The position numbers and the translations under genes are program-made. Of a stretch of DNA of 64,000 nt, positions 17,909 to 26,092 are shown piece by piece (the stretch's first letter is position 1; each line of letters starts with the position of its first letter). The DNA comes from Sinomonas cyclohexanicum (GTDB lineage Bacteria > Actinomycetota > Actinomycetes > Actinomycetales > Micrococcaceae), in NCBI RefSeq assembly GCF_020886775.1, contig NZ_AP024525.1, positions 4,340,001-4,404,000 on the forward strand, written 5' to 3'. The notes beneath the pieces were generated by a model. It searched no databases, was not told the DNA's origin, and saw only the letters and a list, made by a program, of their open reading frames with translations.

Positions 17909-18068
17909 GACGACCCCCCTCTCCATCGCCCGCTGGCCGCACGCGGCTCGCGCGTGGGCGTGCGCACGGCGCCGATGGTGCGGATGCTAACCCCGTCGGC
18001 TCGGGATCAGAAGCCACCACGCCCTGAATGGGCTTCCGAGGTCCGGTGTGTATCATGTCCTCGCAAGG
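17909..18068 (+). promoter_or_regulatory. Divergent promoter region before the M-box
   Basis: This segment between the PIG-L start codon and the M-box should hold promoters in both directions. TGTGTATCAT at 18047-18056 is AT-richer than its surroundings and lies just upstream of the first M-box pairing region, so it may include the -10 element of the magnesium operon. I could not identify a -35 element. Confidence 0.35.
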
Positions 18069-18239
18069 TGCCGTTCGTTAGCTGAGGCTCCTTCGCGGAA
18101 ACAAGCCAGCGACCCCAAACGTCGAGAGACGCCCCCGGTCAGGACAGGCTGCCCCGGACTAAGGGGCAACCCCGATTGGCTCCTTGAGGAACACGCCCCA
18201 AGGTCACGACGCGGAGTGCCAAAGGTCTTACGAGGAAGG
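18069..18239 (+). ncRNA. M-box (ykoK leader) Mg2+ riboswitch
   Basis: Conserved M-box blocks appear in order: GTTCGTTAGCTGAGGCTCCT (18073-18092), AAACGTCGAGAGACGCC (18117-18133), and the closing block AGTGCCAAAGGTCTTACGA (18215-18233). These correspond to the B. subtilis ykoK leader blocks around GUUAGGUGAGGCUCCU, GUCCAAAGACGCC and GUGCUAAAGCUCUACGA. M-boxes bind several Mg2+ ions and reduce expression of Mg2+ transporters when Mg2+ is plentiful. The element lies 260 bp upstream of an NRAMP-related transporter, with two hairpins and a small leader ORF in between. Confidence 0.92.
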
Positions 18240-18265
18240 GCCCCCCGGCAGATCTGGCCGGGGCC
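18239..18265 (+). terminator. GC-rich hairpin just after the M-box
   Basis: GGCCCC-CCGGC pairs with GCCGGGGCC across an AGATCTG loop, directly after the M-box closing helix. There is no T-run. It is the natural candidate for the expression-platform hairpin (intrinsic or Rho-linked termination). Confidence 0.5.
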
Positions 18266-18307
18266 TCCGGAAGGCGCGTGAGAACCGTTTCGAGGAGGTG
18301 GCTGACC

Positions 18308-18349
18308 GTGTCCAGCGGCGATAGTAGTCCCTCCCCGCATACCTCCTGA
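18308..18349 (+). CDS. 13-codon leader ORF between M-box and transporter
   Basis: GTG at 18308 is preceded by a strong Shine-Dalgarno sequence (GAGGAGGTG) at seven bases. It encodes MSSGDSSPSPHTS and stops at 18347-18349. The peptide contains two Pro, five Ser and one Asp. The stop codon lies at the base of a hairpin (18348-18375), so ribosome position on this ORF could decide whether that hairpin forms. Short Pro-containing leader peptides combined with Mg2+-sensing leaders are known from Salmonella mgtA (mgtL). That this ORF is translated is inference from its ribosome binding site and position. Confidence 0.5.
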   Translation: MSSGDSSPSPHTS

Positions 18350-18375: not shown

Positions 18376-18498
18376 ATCCTTCCCTGACGTCGCACGCCCC
18401 GCGCGCCCACTCCTGCCGTGTTCATTCCCTGACAGGTCTGGGCCCTTGGCGTGCCCGCTTCACGAGCCCCGGCCACCGCCGGGAGGAAGCAGGTTCCC

Positions 18499-20268
18499 GT
18501 GATCAAGACCCCCCTGCCCCCTGTCGACAAGCACCTTGCTGTGCCCGCCGCGGAAGCCGGCCACGCGCCGTCGTCCGCCGTGCTTGATTCCGCCCACATC
18601 GGTGACATCCAGGGCGCGTTCGGCACGGTCCGCCTCAACGAGGCGGGCTCCACGACGCGGTCCAGCTGGAAGACGCGCATCAAGACCCTCCTGGCCATCA
18701 TCGGCCCGGGCCTGATCGTCATGGTCGGCGACAACGACGCCGGCGCGTTCGGCACGTACACGCAGGCCGGACAGAACTACGGCACGGGCCTGCTCTGGAC
18801 GCTCCTGCTCCTCGTGCCTGTCCTCTTCCTCTACGTCAACCAGGAGATGGTGCTGCGCCTCGGTGTGGTGACCGGCGTGGGGCACGCGCGGCTCATCCTC
18901 GAGCGCTTCGGCAAGTTCTGGGGCGCCTTCAGCGCGATCGACCTGTTCATCCTCAACGCCCTGACGATCGTCACGGAGTTCATCGGCATCAGCATCGGCC
19001 TGGACTACCTCGGCGTGCCCAAGATCCCGGGCGTGATCGTGGCGGCGCTCGTGGTGGTCGGCGCGGCCAGCACAGGGTCCTTCAAGACGTTCGAGCGCGT
19101 GTGCCTGACCCTCGTGGCCGGCTCGCTCCTGCTCGTGCCGGTGTTCTTCATGAGCAGCCCCGACTACGGCCAGATGGCGCACGACTTCGTGGTCCCCGGC
19201 TTCCCCGCCGGATCCGACGTCGCGGACGTGACGCTGCTCATCATCGCGATCGTCGGCACGACGATCGCTCCGTGGCAGCTGTTCTTCCAGCAGTCCTACG
19301 TGATCGACAAGCGCATCACGCCCCGCTACATGAAGTACGAGCGGGTCGACCTGTGGATCGGGATCGCGATCGTGATCCTCGGGGCCGCTGCGATCATCTC
19401 CTTCACGGCGTTCACGTTCGCGGGCCGGCCCGAGTTCGGGCAGTTCACCGACGCGGGCGGCGTCGCGGAGGGCCTCGGGAAGTACGTGGGACACCTCGCG
19501 GGCATCCTGTTCGCGCTCGCTCTGATCGACGCGTCGATCATCGGTGCCGCCGCGGTGGGCCTCTCGACGTCCTACGCGTTCGGCGACGTCCTGGGGCTCA
19601 AGCACTCGCTCCACCGCAAGGTCCGCGACGCGAAGGGCTTCTACGCGGCCTTCGCGGCGGTGATCCTCGTCGCGGCCGTCATCGTGATCATCCCGGGGAG
19701 CCCGCTCGGCCTCCTCACCGTGGGCGTCCAGGTCCTCGCGGGCGTGCTCCTGCCCTCCGCCACCGTATTCCTCCTCCTGCTGTGCAACGACAAGCAGGTC
19801 ATGGGACCGTGGGTCAACGGGCGAGCGATGAACCTCTTCACGTCCGCGGTCATCGCGGTCCTCGTGATCCTCTCGGTCGTGCTCACCGCGGCCGTGCTGT
19901 TCCCGGACATCGACGCTGCCACCATCCTGGCGATCCTCGGCGTGGGCGCGGGCCTCACGGTCCTCACCGGCGTGGGGCTCGCCGTGGCCCACCTCGTGCG
20001 CCGGGCCGCGCCCTCCGGTGCCGGTACCGCGGCGACGCACGACGGCGAGGCCGCACCCGCTGTCGTGCGCTCGGCTGCCGAGAGCGAGGGCGGGCGCGCC
20101 GCCACGCGCGCGCAGCGGCTCACGTGGCGCATGCCGCCGCTCGCGCTGCTCGAGCGGCCGCAGCTCTCGGCGACCCGCCGAATCGGCCTGAGCGTCCTGC
20201 GCCTCTACCTCCTCGTGGCGATGATCCTGGTCGTCGTGAGGGTCGTGCAGCTCGCCCTCGGCGGCTGA
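18499..20268 (+). CDS. NRAMP-related divalent metal (probably Mg2+) transporter
   Basis: 589 aa from a GTG at 18499 behind GGGAGGA; a GTG at 18451 is a possible earlier start. About eleven to twelve transmembrane helices with the NRAMP/SLC11 pattern (NQEMVLRLGVVTGVGHARLI, VTEFIGISIGLDYLG). The transition-metal site is altered: helix 1 has GDNDAG (residues 77-82) where Mn/Fe transporters have DPGN, and helix 6 has TTIAPW (254-259) instead of a Met-Pro-His type motif. Loss of the Met ligand is the hallmark of NRAMP-related Mg2+ transporters (NRMT). Together with the M-box upstream this argues for Mg2+ uptake rather than MntH function. The CBS protein downstream is probably its regulator. Confidence 0.85.
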   Translation: MIKTPLPPVDKHLAVPAAEAGHAPSSAVLDSAHIGDIQGAFGTVRLNEAGSTTRSSWKTRIKTLLAIIGPGLIVMVGDNDAGAFGTYTQAGQNYGTGLLWTLLLLVPVLFLYVNQEMVLRLGVVTGVGHARLILERFGKFWGAFSAIDLFILNALTIVTEFIGISIGLDYLGVPKIPGVIVAALVVVGAASTGSFKTFERVCLTLVAGSLLLVPVFFMSSPDYGQMAHDFVVPGFPAGSDVADVTLLIIAIVGTTIAPWQLFFQQSYVIDKRITPRYMKYERVDLWIGIAIVILGAAAIISFTAFTFAGRPEFGQFTDAGGVAEGLGKYVGHLAGILFALALIDASIIGAAAVGLSTSYAFGDVLGLKHSLHRKVRDAKGFYAAFAAVILVAAVIVIIPGSPLGLLTVGVQVLAGVLLPSATVFLLLLCNDKQVMGPWVNGRAMNLFTSAVIAVLVILSVVLTAAVLFPDIDAATILAILGVGAGLTVLTGVGLAVAHLVRRAAPSGAGTAATHDGEAAPAVVRSAAESEGGRAATRAQRLTWRMPPLALLERPQLSATRRIGLSVLRLYLLVAMILVVVRVVQLALGG

Positions 20269-20363
20269 CCCCTACCCCCGCCCCCCGCGTCCCCCGATTC
20301 CAGACCGATCCGACCTGACGTACAGTCAGCTCGAGCGTCCGACGTGCTCCCGAAAGGCCACCG

Positions 20364-21623
20364 ATGACCGTCGCACCCCAGAACCTCTCACTGTCTGCCG
20401 TGCTCCGCCACCCCGTCACCGACTCCGATGGCCACAGGATGGGCGCCCTCGCGGACGTGATCGTGCGCCTCCGCGACAGCGACTACCCACTCGTGACCGG
20501 GCTCGTCATGGCCGTGGGCGCGACGCGGACCTTCGTCTCGAGCGCAGACCTCGCGTCGCTCACGCCCGAGCGGGTCGAGGTCTCCCGCAGCACGGTCGAC
20601 GTGCGGGAGTTCGCGCGCCGCGAGGGCGAGGTACTCCTGTCCGAGGACGTCCTCGGACACCGGCTCATCGACCTCTCCCGGATCGCGTTCGTCAAGGCCT
20701 ACGACGTCCAGCTCAGCGAGGTCCTCGACGGCTGGGCCGCGACGGGCCTCGACGTGCACCGGCGGCGCTGGCTCGGCCTGGGCCCCCGGCATGCCGCCCA
20801 CCCTGCACGGGACTGGCTTGAGTTCGAGCCCCTCATCGGCCACCGGGGCTCCGCGCGAGTCCGCCAGGCGAGCGGTCGGATCCACGGCCTCAAGCCTGCG
20901 CAGATCGCGGACATCATCGAGGACGCCAACGGGCACGAGCAGGCCGAGCTGCTCGACCAGGTCCACCGGGACCCCGAGCTCGAGGCCGACGTCTTCGAGG
21001 AGCTTGACCAGGACCGGCAGTCGGAGCTGTTCAGGGAACGCACGGACGGCGAGGTCGCAGAGCTGCTCGGGCGCATGCAGACTGATGACGCCGCCGACGC
21101 CCTCATGGACCTCCCACAGGAACGACGGCTGACCGTGCTCAACGCCATGCCGGAGCCGCAGCGGACCGCCGTCCACCGCCTCCTCGGCTATCACGACCTC
21201 ACGGCCGGCGGCCTCATGGGCACCGACCTCGTCGCCCTGCCAGCCACGGCGACCGCCGCCGACGCCCTCGCGGCGGTCCGCGTGGCGTCGTACGTCCAGC
21301 CGCAGGCGCTCGTGGCGGTCTTCACGCTGCGCGAGGACGAGACGCTCGACGGCGTCGTCAGCCTCGTCGCCGCGGTCCAGGCCGACCCCGCGCGGCCCCT
21401 GTCCGAGATCGCGGACCAGGACGTGGTGGTCGCGGCCCCCACGGACGACGTCGTGGACGTCACCCGGCGCATGGCGGACTTCAACCTCCTCGCGCTGCCG
21501 GTGGTCGACGACGGGCGGCGCCTGATCGGCGTCATCACGGTCGATGACGCCCTCGAGGCGGCCATCCCGGAAGACTGGTCGCGCCGCGAGTCGGGCCATC
21601 GGGAGACGGGCTCCGAGTCATAG
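20364..21623 (+). CDS. Soluble MgtE N-domain/CBS protein (Mg2+ sensor without channel)
   Basis: 419 aa, with no transmembrane helices. Residues ~1-90 and ~95-160 look like PRC-barrel-type modules (GALADVIVRLRDSDYPLVTG, GHRLIDLSRIAFVKAYDVQL). Residues ~170-285 match the MgtE N superhelical domain (LKPAQIADIIEDANGHEQAE, RMQTDDAADALMDLPQERRL). Residues ~290-405 form a CBS pair (DDVVDVTRRMADFNLLALPV, GRRLIGVITVDDALEA). In MgtE these domains sense cytosolic Mg2+ and gate the attached channel. Here the channel is missing and the preceding gene, 95 bp away, is an NRAMP-related transporter, so it may gate that protein in trans. Confidence 0.85.
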   Translation: MTVAPQNLSLSAVLRHPVTDSDGHRMGALADVIVRLRDSDYPLVTGLVMAVGATRTFVSSADLASLTPERVEVSRSTVDVREFARREGEVLLSEDVLGHRLIDLSRIAFVKAYDVQLSEVLDGWAATGLDVHRRRWLGLGPRHAAHPARDWLEFEPLIGHRGSARVRQASGRIHGLKPAQIADIIEDANGHEQAELLDQVHRDPELEADVFEELDQDRQSELFRERTDGEVAELLGRMQTDDAADALMDLPQERRLTVLNAMPEPQRTAVHRLLGYHDLTAGGLMGTDLVALPATATAADALAAVRVASYVQPQALVAVFTLREDETLDGVVSLVAAVQADPARPLSEIADQDVVVAAPTDDVVDVTRRMADFNLLALPVVDDGRRLIGVITVDDALEAAIPEDWSRRESGHRETGSES

Positions 21624-24566: not shown

Positions 24567-25934
24567 TCAGGCGGGCTGCTCACCGGAGTCCGTGGCCGAG
24601 TCCGTGGCGGTGCGAGCGGCCCCGAACCGTGCCTCAGCAGCGGCCGGGTCCTTCGCGGCGAGCGCTGCCGCGGTCGTGAGGATGCCGAGGAACGCGAACC
24701 AGCCGCACACGAGCCACGGCTGGCCGCCGCCGACCTCGAGCAGTGCGGCCGCGACGAGCGGGGTGATGGCCGCGGAGAGGACGGTGCCGACCTGGTAGCC
24801 GAACGACACGCCGGAGTAGCGCAGCTCCGTGGGGAACTGCTCGGCGAACCACGCGGCCTGGGGGCCGTAGATCGCGTCGTGGAGGATGTTCATGCCCACG
24901 AGCAGTACGAGCGGCAGGTAGGTGAGGCTGCCATGGTCGAGGAACCAGAAGAAGGGCCAGATGAGCGCGATCACGCCCACAGATGCGGCCACGGCGATGC
25001 GACGGCGGCCGATCCGGTCCGAGAGCCAGCCCCAGAACGGGCCGGAGAGCAGGCCGATCGCGGAGACGATGAGGATCGCGGCGAGGCCCGACGTGGTGTC
25101 GTGGCGGCGGTCCTTGAGGTAGCCGAGGATGTACACGGTCATGAGCGTGTAGATGGCCGGCTGGACGAGGCGCATGCCGATGGTCACGAGGATGCCGCGG
25201 GGATGTTCCCTGAGCACGCGCACCACGGGCCGCTTGACGATGCGGGCCTCCTCCTTGATGGCGGTGAACTCGTCCGCATCCGTCACGCCGAGGCGGATCC
25301 ACAGGCCCACCACCACGAGGACACCGGAGAGCAGGAACGGGATGCGCCAGCCGAACGCCTGGAACTGGTCCGCGGTGAGGAACGCCTGCGTGAGAGCGTA
25401 GGCGGCGGTCGCGAGCAGCATGCCGGCCGCGGAACCGACCTGCGTGAACGAGCCGAAGAGGCCGCGGCTGCCGGGCGGGGCGTGCTCGACCGAGAGGAGC
25501 GCGGAGCCTCCCCACTCGGCGCCCGCGGAGAGTCCCTGGATGAGCCGGAGACCCACGAGCCCGATGACGGCGAGGATGCCGATAGCGGCATAGTTCGGCA
25601 GGATGCCGATGAGGGTCGATGCGATGCCCATGGTCAGCAGGGAGGCGATCAGGAGGGCCTTGCGGCCGATCCGGTCCCCGAGGTGGCCAGAGATCACGCC
25701 GCCGAGTGGGCGTGCTATGAATCCGACGGCATATGTAGCGAACGAGGCGAGCACGGCCACGAGCGGGCTCGCATCGGGGAAGAACTGCTTGCCGAACACG
25801 AGCGCCGAGGCCGTGCCGTAGAGGTAGAAGTCGTACCACTCGATCGTGGTCCCGACGAATGCCGAGGCAAGGATGCGCCGCTTGGCGCGCAGGGCGGCGC
25901 CGAGCCCACGCTCGGCGGTGACGAGGGTGGCCAT
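24567..25934 (-). CDS. MHS-family MFS transporter
   Basis: 455 aa, twelve transmembrane helices. It has the metabolite:H+ symporter signatures TTIEWYDFYLYGTASALVFG, FIARPLGGVISGHLGDRIGR, LRLIQGLSAGAEWGGSALL and RYSGVSFGYQVGTVLSAAIT. The start ATG at 25934 follows GGAGG at six bases. It should import an organic acid-like or sulfonate-like substrate. It leads the operon with the flavin monooxygenase (87-bp gap) and is preceded by a SAM-IV-like riboswitch, linking uptake to sulfur or methionine status. Confidence 0.88.
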   Translation of the reverse strand: MATLVTAERGLGAALRAKRRILASAFVGTTIEWYDFYLYGTASALVFGKQFFPDASPLVAVLASFATYAVGFIARPLGGVISGHLGDRIGRKALLIASLLTMGIASTLIGILPNYAAIGILAVIGLVGLRLIQGLSAGAEWGGSALLSVEHAPPGSRGLFGSFTQVGSAAGMLLATAAYALTQAFLTADQFQAFGWRIPFLLSGVLVVVGLWIRLGVTDADEFTAIKEEARIVKRPVVRVLREHPRGILVTIGMRLVQPAIYTLMTVYILGYLKDRRHDTTSGLAAILIVSAIGLLSGPFWGWLSDRIGRRRIAVAASVGVIALIWPFFWFLDHGSLTYLPLVLLVGMNILHDAIYGPQAAWFAEQFPTELRYSGVSFGYQVGTVLSAAITPLVAAALLEVGGGQPWLVCGWFAFLGILTTAAALAAKDPAAAEARFGAARTATDSATDSGEQPA

Positions 25935-26003
25935 GTGGTTCCTCCGGATCGCGGCGCGAGGCTCGCTCAGGCGCCATACTTACGACGCCGGGGTCCCGGG
26001 CGC
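25935..26003 (-). promoter_or_regulatory. Expression platform of the SAM-IV-like riboswitch
   Basis: Between the aptamer and the MFS start codon lie a GC-rich stem (CGACG...CGTCG around CCGGG/CCCCGG) and a GGCGC...GCGCC stem ending close to the Shine-Dalgarno sequence GGAGGAAC. This layout suits ligand-controlled translation initiation or termination. There is no T-run. Confidence 0.45.
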
Positions 26004-26092
26004 CGTCGAATCCTCACCTGGGGCACCCCACTACAGCTGGAGGGTTGCCGTCCGGCTAGCCAGGGCTTCTCACCGGAACTCTTGATTCTTCA
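26004..26092 (-). ncRNA. SAM-IV-like S-adenosylmethionine riboswitch
   Basis: Read on the minus strand, the order is AAGAGTTCCGGTGAGAAGCC, CTGGCTAGCCGGACGGCAAC, CCTCC, then GTGGGGTGCCCCAGGTGAGG. This matches my recollection of the actinobacterial SAM-IV family (core GGCUUGCUGGCCGGCAACCCUCC ... GGUGGGGUGCCCCGGGUGA), with the GGCAACC / GGUGCC core shared by SAM-I. Ligand binding should shut off the sulfur-scavenging operon below (MFS transporter and flavin monooxygenase). The nearby SAM-I/IV variant family cannot be excluded by eye. Confidence 0.85.

Follow-up and report, generated by a model that had tools for sequence, protein, structure and literature searches.

In the genome of Sinomonas cyclohexanicum, a gene for a transporter of the NRAMP family is followed by a gene for a soluble protein with the cytosolic domains of the Mg2+ channel MgtE, and both lie behind an M-box Mg2+ riboswitch. 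The locus was found in a 64,000-nucleotide stretch of contig NZ_AP024525.1 (positions 4,340,001 to 4,404,000 of the forward strand), hereafter the window, whose own numbering is used for coordinates. Among relatives, the second gene (the accessory gene) recurs on the same strand beside transporters of this type, and its product retains most of the acidic residues found at the Mg2+ sites of MgtE. We hold the chances to be about even that this is an operon for Mg2+ uptake under M-box control, in which the accessory protein is a Mg2+ sensor that slows the transporter. The locus is laid out as follows.

18067 to 18244, plus strand: M-box Mg2+ riboswitch aptamer (RF00380; 106.5 bits against a gathering threshold of 44, E 9.8e-23)
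18308 to 18349, plus strand: putative M-box leader open reading frame (ORF) of 13 codons, VSSGDSSPSPHTS, with the Shine-Dalgarno (SD) sequence GAGGAGG at 18292-18298; similar ORFs recur in other M-box leaders
18499 to 20268, plus strand: NRMT-like NRAMP-family transporter of 589 aa with a GTG start (Pfam Nramp; EleNRMT is the best solved relative)
19906 to 20265, plus strand: C-terminal extension of the transporter, with extra hydrophobic segments at about residues 476-494 and 562-580 around a WRMPPLALL linker
20364 to 21623, plus strand: soluble accessory protein of 419 aa (from its ORF, Pfam, hydropathy and an AlphaFold2 model)
20382 to 20753, plus strand: PRC-barrel-type N-terminal region of the accessory protein, about residues 7-130 (PF05239 in relatives; beta-rich in the model)
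20889 to 21197, plus strand: MgtE_N domain of the accessory protein, residues 176-278 (PF03448, E 4.2e-21)
21201 to 21575, plus strand: CBS pair of the accessory protein, about residues 280-404 (Pfam called the second CBS only, 347-399; CBS-pair structures align over about 280-404)

The two genes are 95 bp apart, and no terminator-like site was seen between them in the window. The sequence GGGAGGAAG ends 9 nt 5' of the GTG at 18499; an alternative in-frame GTG upstream, at 18451, would extend the transporter to 605 aa. In the genome, examined as one contig of 4.41 Mb, the M-box that the sequence-only reading had placed upstream of the transporter is the sole one found. Searches through the genome returned one CorA, two NRAMP genes (the window transporter and an MntH-like copy) and no MgtE membrane domain (PF01769), which leaves the sensor without an MgtE channel to serve there.

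That the two genes act as one functional unit, as the sequence-only reading supposed when it proposed a survey of their neighbourhoods, is well supported by such a survey. From at least 579 transporter stretches confirmed in named genomes, we fetched the best 80; the sample was drawn with the window proteins and their relatives as queries, and its counts are not population frequencies. The accessory gene lay in the fetched flanks of 18 of the 80 transporter loci, some contigs ending early; at L065 and L101 it adjoins a second transporter gene. Accessory genes elsewhere were then sought in 50 of those genomes. All 13 further accessory places fetched adjoin a transporter gene, two of them (L137 and L138) having been chosen for a nearby M-box, while none of the seven paralogue-type places fetched (see below) does so. 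Altogether the accessory gene is adjacent in 46 of 111 transporter rows and on the same strand in 46/46, with the accessory gene first in 24 pairs, the transporter first in 22, and a median gap, measured between alignment ends, of 27 bp. In Sinomonas and Arthrobacter, one genome can hold both transporter copies that adjoin an accessory gene and copies that do not.

A tree of 66 accessory proteins was divided by one branch (support 100/100) into 42 NRMT-adjacent proteins and 24 others, a split as low as that observed being reached in 0/500 label shuffles. Fourteen of the 42 adjacent rows were found through the transporter, and are adjacent by choice; the other 28, the window included, were reached by accessory searches, so that their adjacency is not built in. 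For the 24 remaining rows, "not adjacent" applies to the flanks fetched, which were about 1.5 kb for most. A match to the window accessory was present in 277 of 296 genomes of the class, a few weak matches perhaps being MgtE, and the second group is a widespread actinobacterial paralogue. A paralogue so common, with no transporter seen beside it, would fit a general cytosolic sensor of Mg2+ or nucleotides that is co-regulated with the operon and acts elsewhere. We consider this improbable for the accessory protein, as the operon form makes up a clade of its own that stands beside NRMT in 42/42 tree rows, in either order, and the pairing persists at loci where an M-box was not found (L129-L133 and L139). 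Repeated recruitment of the accessory protein from the paralogue was unsupported, since one branch separates the groups, though this falls short of proof, the tree carrying a warning of meeting long branches. The second PRC-MgtE_N-CBS protein of the S. cyclohexanicum genome (G000:C1:2852450-2853682; L035:9442-10716) is encoded next to DUF1003 and ParA/Mrp-type genes.

In a transporter tree built by a fast method, pairing was seen in 12/12 rows of an EleNRMT-like clade, all 12 reached through the accessory protein; against EleNRMT, two rows of this clade reach 293 and 304 bits. Pairing was also found in the clade of the window transporter, where gene order has switched between subclades. No pairs occurred in 12 streptomycete-type rows or in a 43-row clade whose members are filed as Pseudomonadota; four other streptomycete transporter copies are paired with the accessory gene. 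One complete proteobacterial genome, that of Bradyrhizobium BTAi1, holds one pair (L130). Locus L055, from a bin filed as Proteobacteria, is almost identical to L056, filed as Actinomycetes, both being from sample BP9; L055 is probably a mis-binned contig. A porin-like gene lies near the NRMT-like gene in eleven loci (L061, L067, L071, L088, L099, L105, L112, L113 and L115-L117), with Pfam OprB confirmed in L117 only.

The gene after the transporter had been read as an MgtE N-terminal domain and CBS domains with no membrane part, and this description held. Pfam detected MgtE_N (75.8 bits) and CBS (48.3 bits) in the accessory protein and did not find the MgtE membrane family PF01769. Its hydropathy is low, with a highest 19-residue mean of 1.44 (1.71 being the highest among 43 linked relatives). 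A PRC-barrel (PF05239, E up to 0.01) was called by Pfam in 11/17 linked proteins and 11/12 paralogues, in 0/5 MgtE channels scanned, and not in the window accessory itself. An AlphaFold2 model of the latter, built from a 17-row alignment (mean pLDDT 82.4, pTM 0.57), runs from a beta-rich N-terminal region through the MgtE_N helices to the CBS pair; a single-sequence model was uninformative (pLDDT 42). The top structural matches of the model are the cytosolic parts of MgtE (Foldseek E 4e-18; Z 17-20, rmsd 10-13 Å over 226-253 residues, the PRC part being hardly covered). Its predicted domains match that part of MgtE, with a different domain placement in the model.

A truncated or decayed MgtE is disfavoured, given a genome with no MgtE membrane domain, a PRC-barrel in both relatives and paralogue, and a conserved ORF family. 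The PRC-barrel is present in both accessory groups and missing from MgtE channels, so the MgtE_N-CBS module had most likely become a separate protein by the time it was associated with the transporter, if not earlier. The earlier suggestion that the gating module of MgtE was transferred to an unrelated permease is thus to be amended: the accessory protein resembles a stand-alone PRC-MgtE_N-CBS family with a paralogue, and not a cut-down MgtE.

We compared the accessory protein with T. thermophilus MgtE (TtMgtE) at six Mg2+-site residues (E59, D91, D95, D226, D247 and D250; PMC5882242). The window accessory has D, D, D, N, D and E at these sites, i.e. five of six are acidic. Among 43 linked rows, the residue is acidic in 42 at E59, 43 at D91, 42 at D95, 43 at D247 and 42 at D250. 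At the positions that contact ATP in TtMgtE (Y170, R187, D188 and F227; PMC5529423) the window accessory has A, V, A and L, and these positions vary in five MgtE channels too.

The transporter belongs to Pfam Nramp (PF01566, 275 bits, E 1.2e-81). Both motifs picked out in the sequence-only reading are present, GDNDAG at residues 77-82 and TTIAPW at residues 254-259. Ranked against solved structures, it matched EleNRMT first (7qia; 185 bits, E 1.6e-53) and 10ky second (82 bits), and entries named MntH at 57 bits at most. The other NRAMP of the genome, used as a control, showed the reverse, with 299 bits to a solved MntH and 35 bits to EleNRMT. The window transporter is therefore closer to EleNRMT than to MntH. 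At helix 6 of the ion site it has T254-T-I-A257, a TxxA motif shared with EleNRMT (Ramanadane et al. 2022, PMC8806188) that agrees with the TxxA/T pattern; it has no Met, which is expected in the helix 6 motif of MntH. The helix 6 T and A are kept in 99/99 rows of the window transporter clade. Bit scores, helix 6 motif and the MntH-like control together rule out an ordinary MntH.

At helix 1, where the published NRMT signature is DxxG (PMC8806188), the window transporter has D80-A-G-A83. Position 83 is A in 23/34 accessory-linked and 64/65 unlinked rows of its clade (99 rows), and G in 12/12 rows set apart as EleNRMT-like. The replacement of G by A at DxxG thus extends to 87 of the 99 rows, proteobacterial ones included; in the window its codon is 18745-18747. 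By these residues the protein is best described as an NRMT-like variant with DxxA, not as a strict DxxG member. It also differs from EleNRMT in its C-terminal region with two hydrophobic segments. This extension, with the WRMPPL motif in its linker, is common to linked and unlinked rows of the transporter clade and is missing from L044, an EleNRMT-like relative. Residues 549-550 of the tail show the strongest difference between linked and unlinked rows. They could form a docking motif, but the same residues are retained by unlinked rows that fall inside the linked clade, so descent explains the pattern equally well.

Mg2+ had been named the likely ion on the strength of the M-box, and Mg2+ is still the likely cargo of the window transporter in view of the M-box, the similarity to EleNRMT and the MgtC neighbours of relatives. 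Genomes were searched for 78 of the named loci, and in 19 of these an M-box lies directly 5' of the transporter (19/19 were seen again by cmscan), and none was found in 29 searched genomes filed as Pseudomonadota. Among the 18 named loci that hold an accessory gene, an M-box precedes the paired transporter in 6, and one was found in 6 of 12 further loci, two of which have the order M-box, accessory gene, transporter. Of the 111 transporter rows, 24 have an MgtC-family gene no more than 4 kb away, and 20 of these 24 are without the accessory gene, although rows can share a gene; Pfam confirmed MgtC in 3/3 checked (L062, L077 and L093), and further examples are L086, L092, L096, L103, L104, L110 and L122. 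ArsR-type regulator genes were seen near the NRMT-like loci L046, L049, L054, L070, L080, L128 and L132, of which L046 and L128 have an M-box and L049, L054, L070 and L080 do not (Pfam HTH_5 was verified for L070 and L080 only).

Could the transporter carry mainly Mn2+, or some other divalent ion, with the accessory protein responding to that ion? In the published work on NrmT genes, the Acidobacterium capsulatum transporter, from a pair with no M-box, looked like a Mn2+ importer (PMC4072509), and EleNRMT is reported to transport Mn2+ besides Mg2+ (PMC8806188). The DxxA ion site and the ArsR-type regulators near some relatives can be read the same way. This alternative has to accommodate an M-box upstream both in the window and at 12 other pairs, a separate MntH-like NRAMP in the genome, and the MgtC genes near relatives, and we regard it as unlikely.

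The stretch between the M-box and the transporter is a lead of its own. No terminator-like site was seen in this leader in the window, which holds the putative SD-led ORF at 18308. In a set of 79 actinobacterial M-box leaders (from L045-L206; L179 was dropped), an SD-led ORF occurs in 64, and the peptides share a motif near the N terminus, centred on (D/H/S)-S-P. This motif was drawn up with the peptides in view, and the set contains many near copies. The ORF was present in 20/24 leaders before an NRMT-like gene, 2/2 before an accessory-transporter pair, 16/24 at further M-boxes in those genomes and 26/29 in genus g16. First-order shuffles gave the motif in 0.4% and the antisense strand in 0/79. 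The serine codon of the motif is AGT in 63/64. In 26 streptomycete-type ORFs the synonymous share was 0.33 in frame and 0.21 and 0.13 out of frame, compared with 0.21 in frame and 0.18 and 0.22 out of frame in 17 ORFs of g16; this codon test supports coding only in the streptomycete-type set. Two streptomycete genomes are rich in M-boxes, that of L072 (G323) with eight and that of L121 (G343) with seven, and the ORF follows 5/8 and 7/7 of them, respectively. At L065, three M-boxes lie within 3 kb. A specific switch structure in the leader was unsupported, as pairing runs were close to those of shuffled sequences, both for the motif with upstream RNA (mean longest run 6.70 vs 6.71 shuffled) and for the SD with the linker (6.33 vs 6.24 shuffled).

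A short SD-led ORF 3' of the aptamer is shared with the M-box upstream ORF (uORF) of Mycobacterium tuberculosis. D'Halluin et al. 2026 report Rho-dependent termination at that M-box, show by reporter fusions that the M-box uORF is expressed in a mycobacterium, and term its peptide mycobacteria-specific (PMC12810186). The window leader, in which no intrinsic terminator was found, precedes a transporter, and similar ORFs occur in streptomycetes and Micrococcales, which suggests a family wider than the mycobacteria.

Put together, these features best support the following scheme. At low Mg2+, the M-box leader would permit expression of the operon, as the M-box family would lead one to expect; its expression platform is likely to be translational or Rho-type, because no intrinsic terminator was seen. 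The NRMT-like transporter would import Mg2+ as a largely hydrated ion, by analogy with EleNRMT. The accessory protein would be a Mg2+ sensor, soluble and probably dimeric, and may contact the transporter at the cytosolic face of the latter. As cytosolic Mg2+ rises, it would slow the transporter through the same acidic N-domain/CBS interface that closes MgtE.

Several observations weigh against this scheme. Most of the best 80 transporter loci show no accessory gene in the fetched flanks, and in none of the 46 pairs were transporter and accessory protein seen fused. The D226 position (the Mg5 site) is N or R in 42/43 linked rows, and it is also not D in 3/5 of the MgtE channels compared. The paralogue is acidic in 24/24 at E59, D91, D95, D247 and D250, so the conserved acids are not specific to transporter control. 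From published experiments (PMC4072509) comes, besides the Mn2+-like behaviour of the A. capsulatum transporter, the report that co-expressing that pair, with its partial MgtE, gave no better rescue of a Mg2+ defect, and that Clostridium acetobutylicum transporters functioned without their MgtE-like fragment.

The absence of a gain in rescue, the added PRC-barrel, the loss of D226 and the ATP-site residues that are not kept would all suit an accessory protein that works with the transporter in some way other than as a Mg2+ gate, for example in assembly, stability or the handing on of metal, the CBS and PRC domains then responding to some other signal. We think this somewhat unlikely, since 42-43 of the 43 linked rows retain most of the acidic residues of the MgtE sites. 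The co-expression result is compatible with gating, because a feedback inhibitor is not expected to improve rescue.

The idea of a detached sensor is not new, having been published in outline in 2014. Shin et al. reported an MgtE-like neighbour of NrmT genes, often behind an M-box, and proposed feedback control (PMC4072509). The window locus shares with those operons the NRAMP-related transporter, the adjacent homologue of the MgtE cytoplasmic part and the upstream M-box. The main text of that paper makes no mention of PRC, CBS, MgtC or actinobacteria; the PRC-barrel, the paralogue split, the switch in gene order and the site residues are described here. Relative to the TtMgtE cytosolic domain (2yvy, 5x9g), the accessory protein shares MgtE_N, the CBS pair and most of the Mg2+-site acids, and differs in having no membrane channel, an added PRC-barrel-type domain, and neither D226 nor the ATP-site residues. 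In open-licence literature we have not met the PRC-MgtE_N-CBS make-up, the paralogue split or a pair that persists through order changes, nor the site-residue count, the DxxA site or the spread of the leader ORF.

Tentatively, and with appreciably less confidence than in the operon itself, we propose that the stand-alone PRC-MgtE_N-CBS protein may be a dedicated brake that responds to Mg2+ and acts in trans on a LeuT-fold NRAMP-type transporter, in a pairing that outlasted switches of gene order and spans two NRMT clades. This pairing also extends to one or more proteobacteria, Bradyrhizobium BTAi1 among them, and over part of its range it runs alongside an M-box with its leader ORF of near-invariant AGT.

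Elsewhere in the window, a SAM-IV riboswitch (25971-26087, minus strand, 88.7 bits) lies upstream of a 455-aa ORF (24567-25934) that, by eye only, resembles a major-facilitator transporter.

Sinomonas and Arthrobacter offer a genetic handle on the pairing, as transporter copies with and without the accessory gene can be compared within one cell. If the accessory protein does gate the transporter, this would answer the 2014 question on the role of the MgtE-like fragment, and one sensor module would control two unrelated transport folds, a channel and a carrier.

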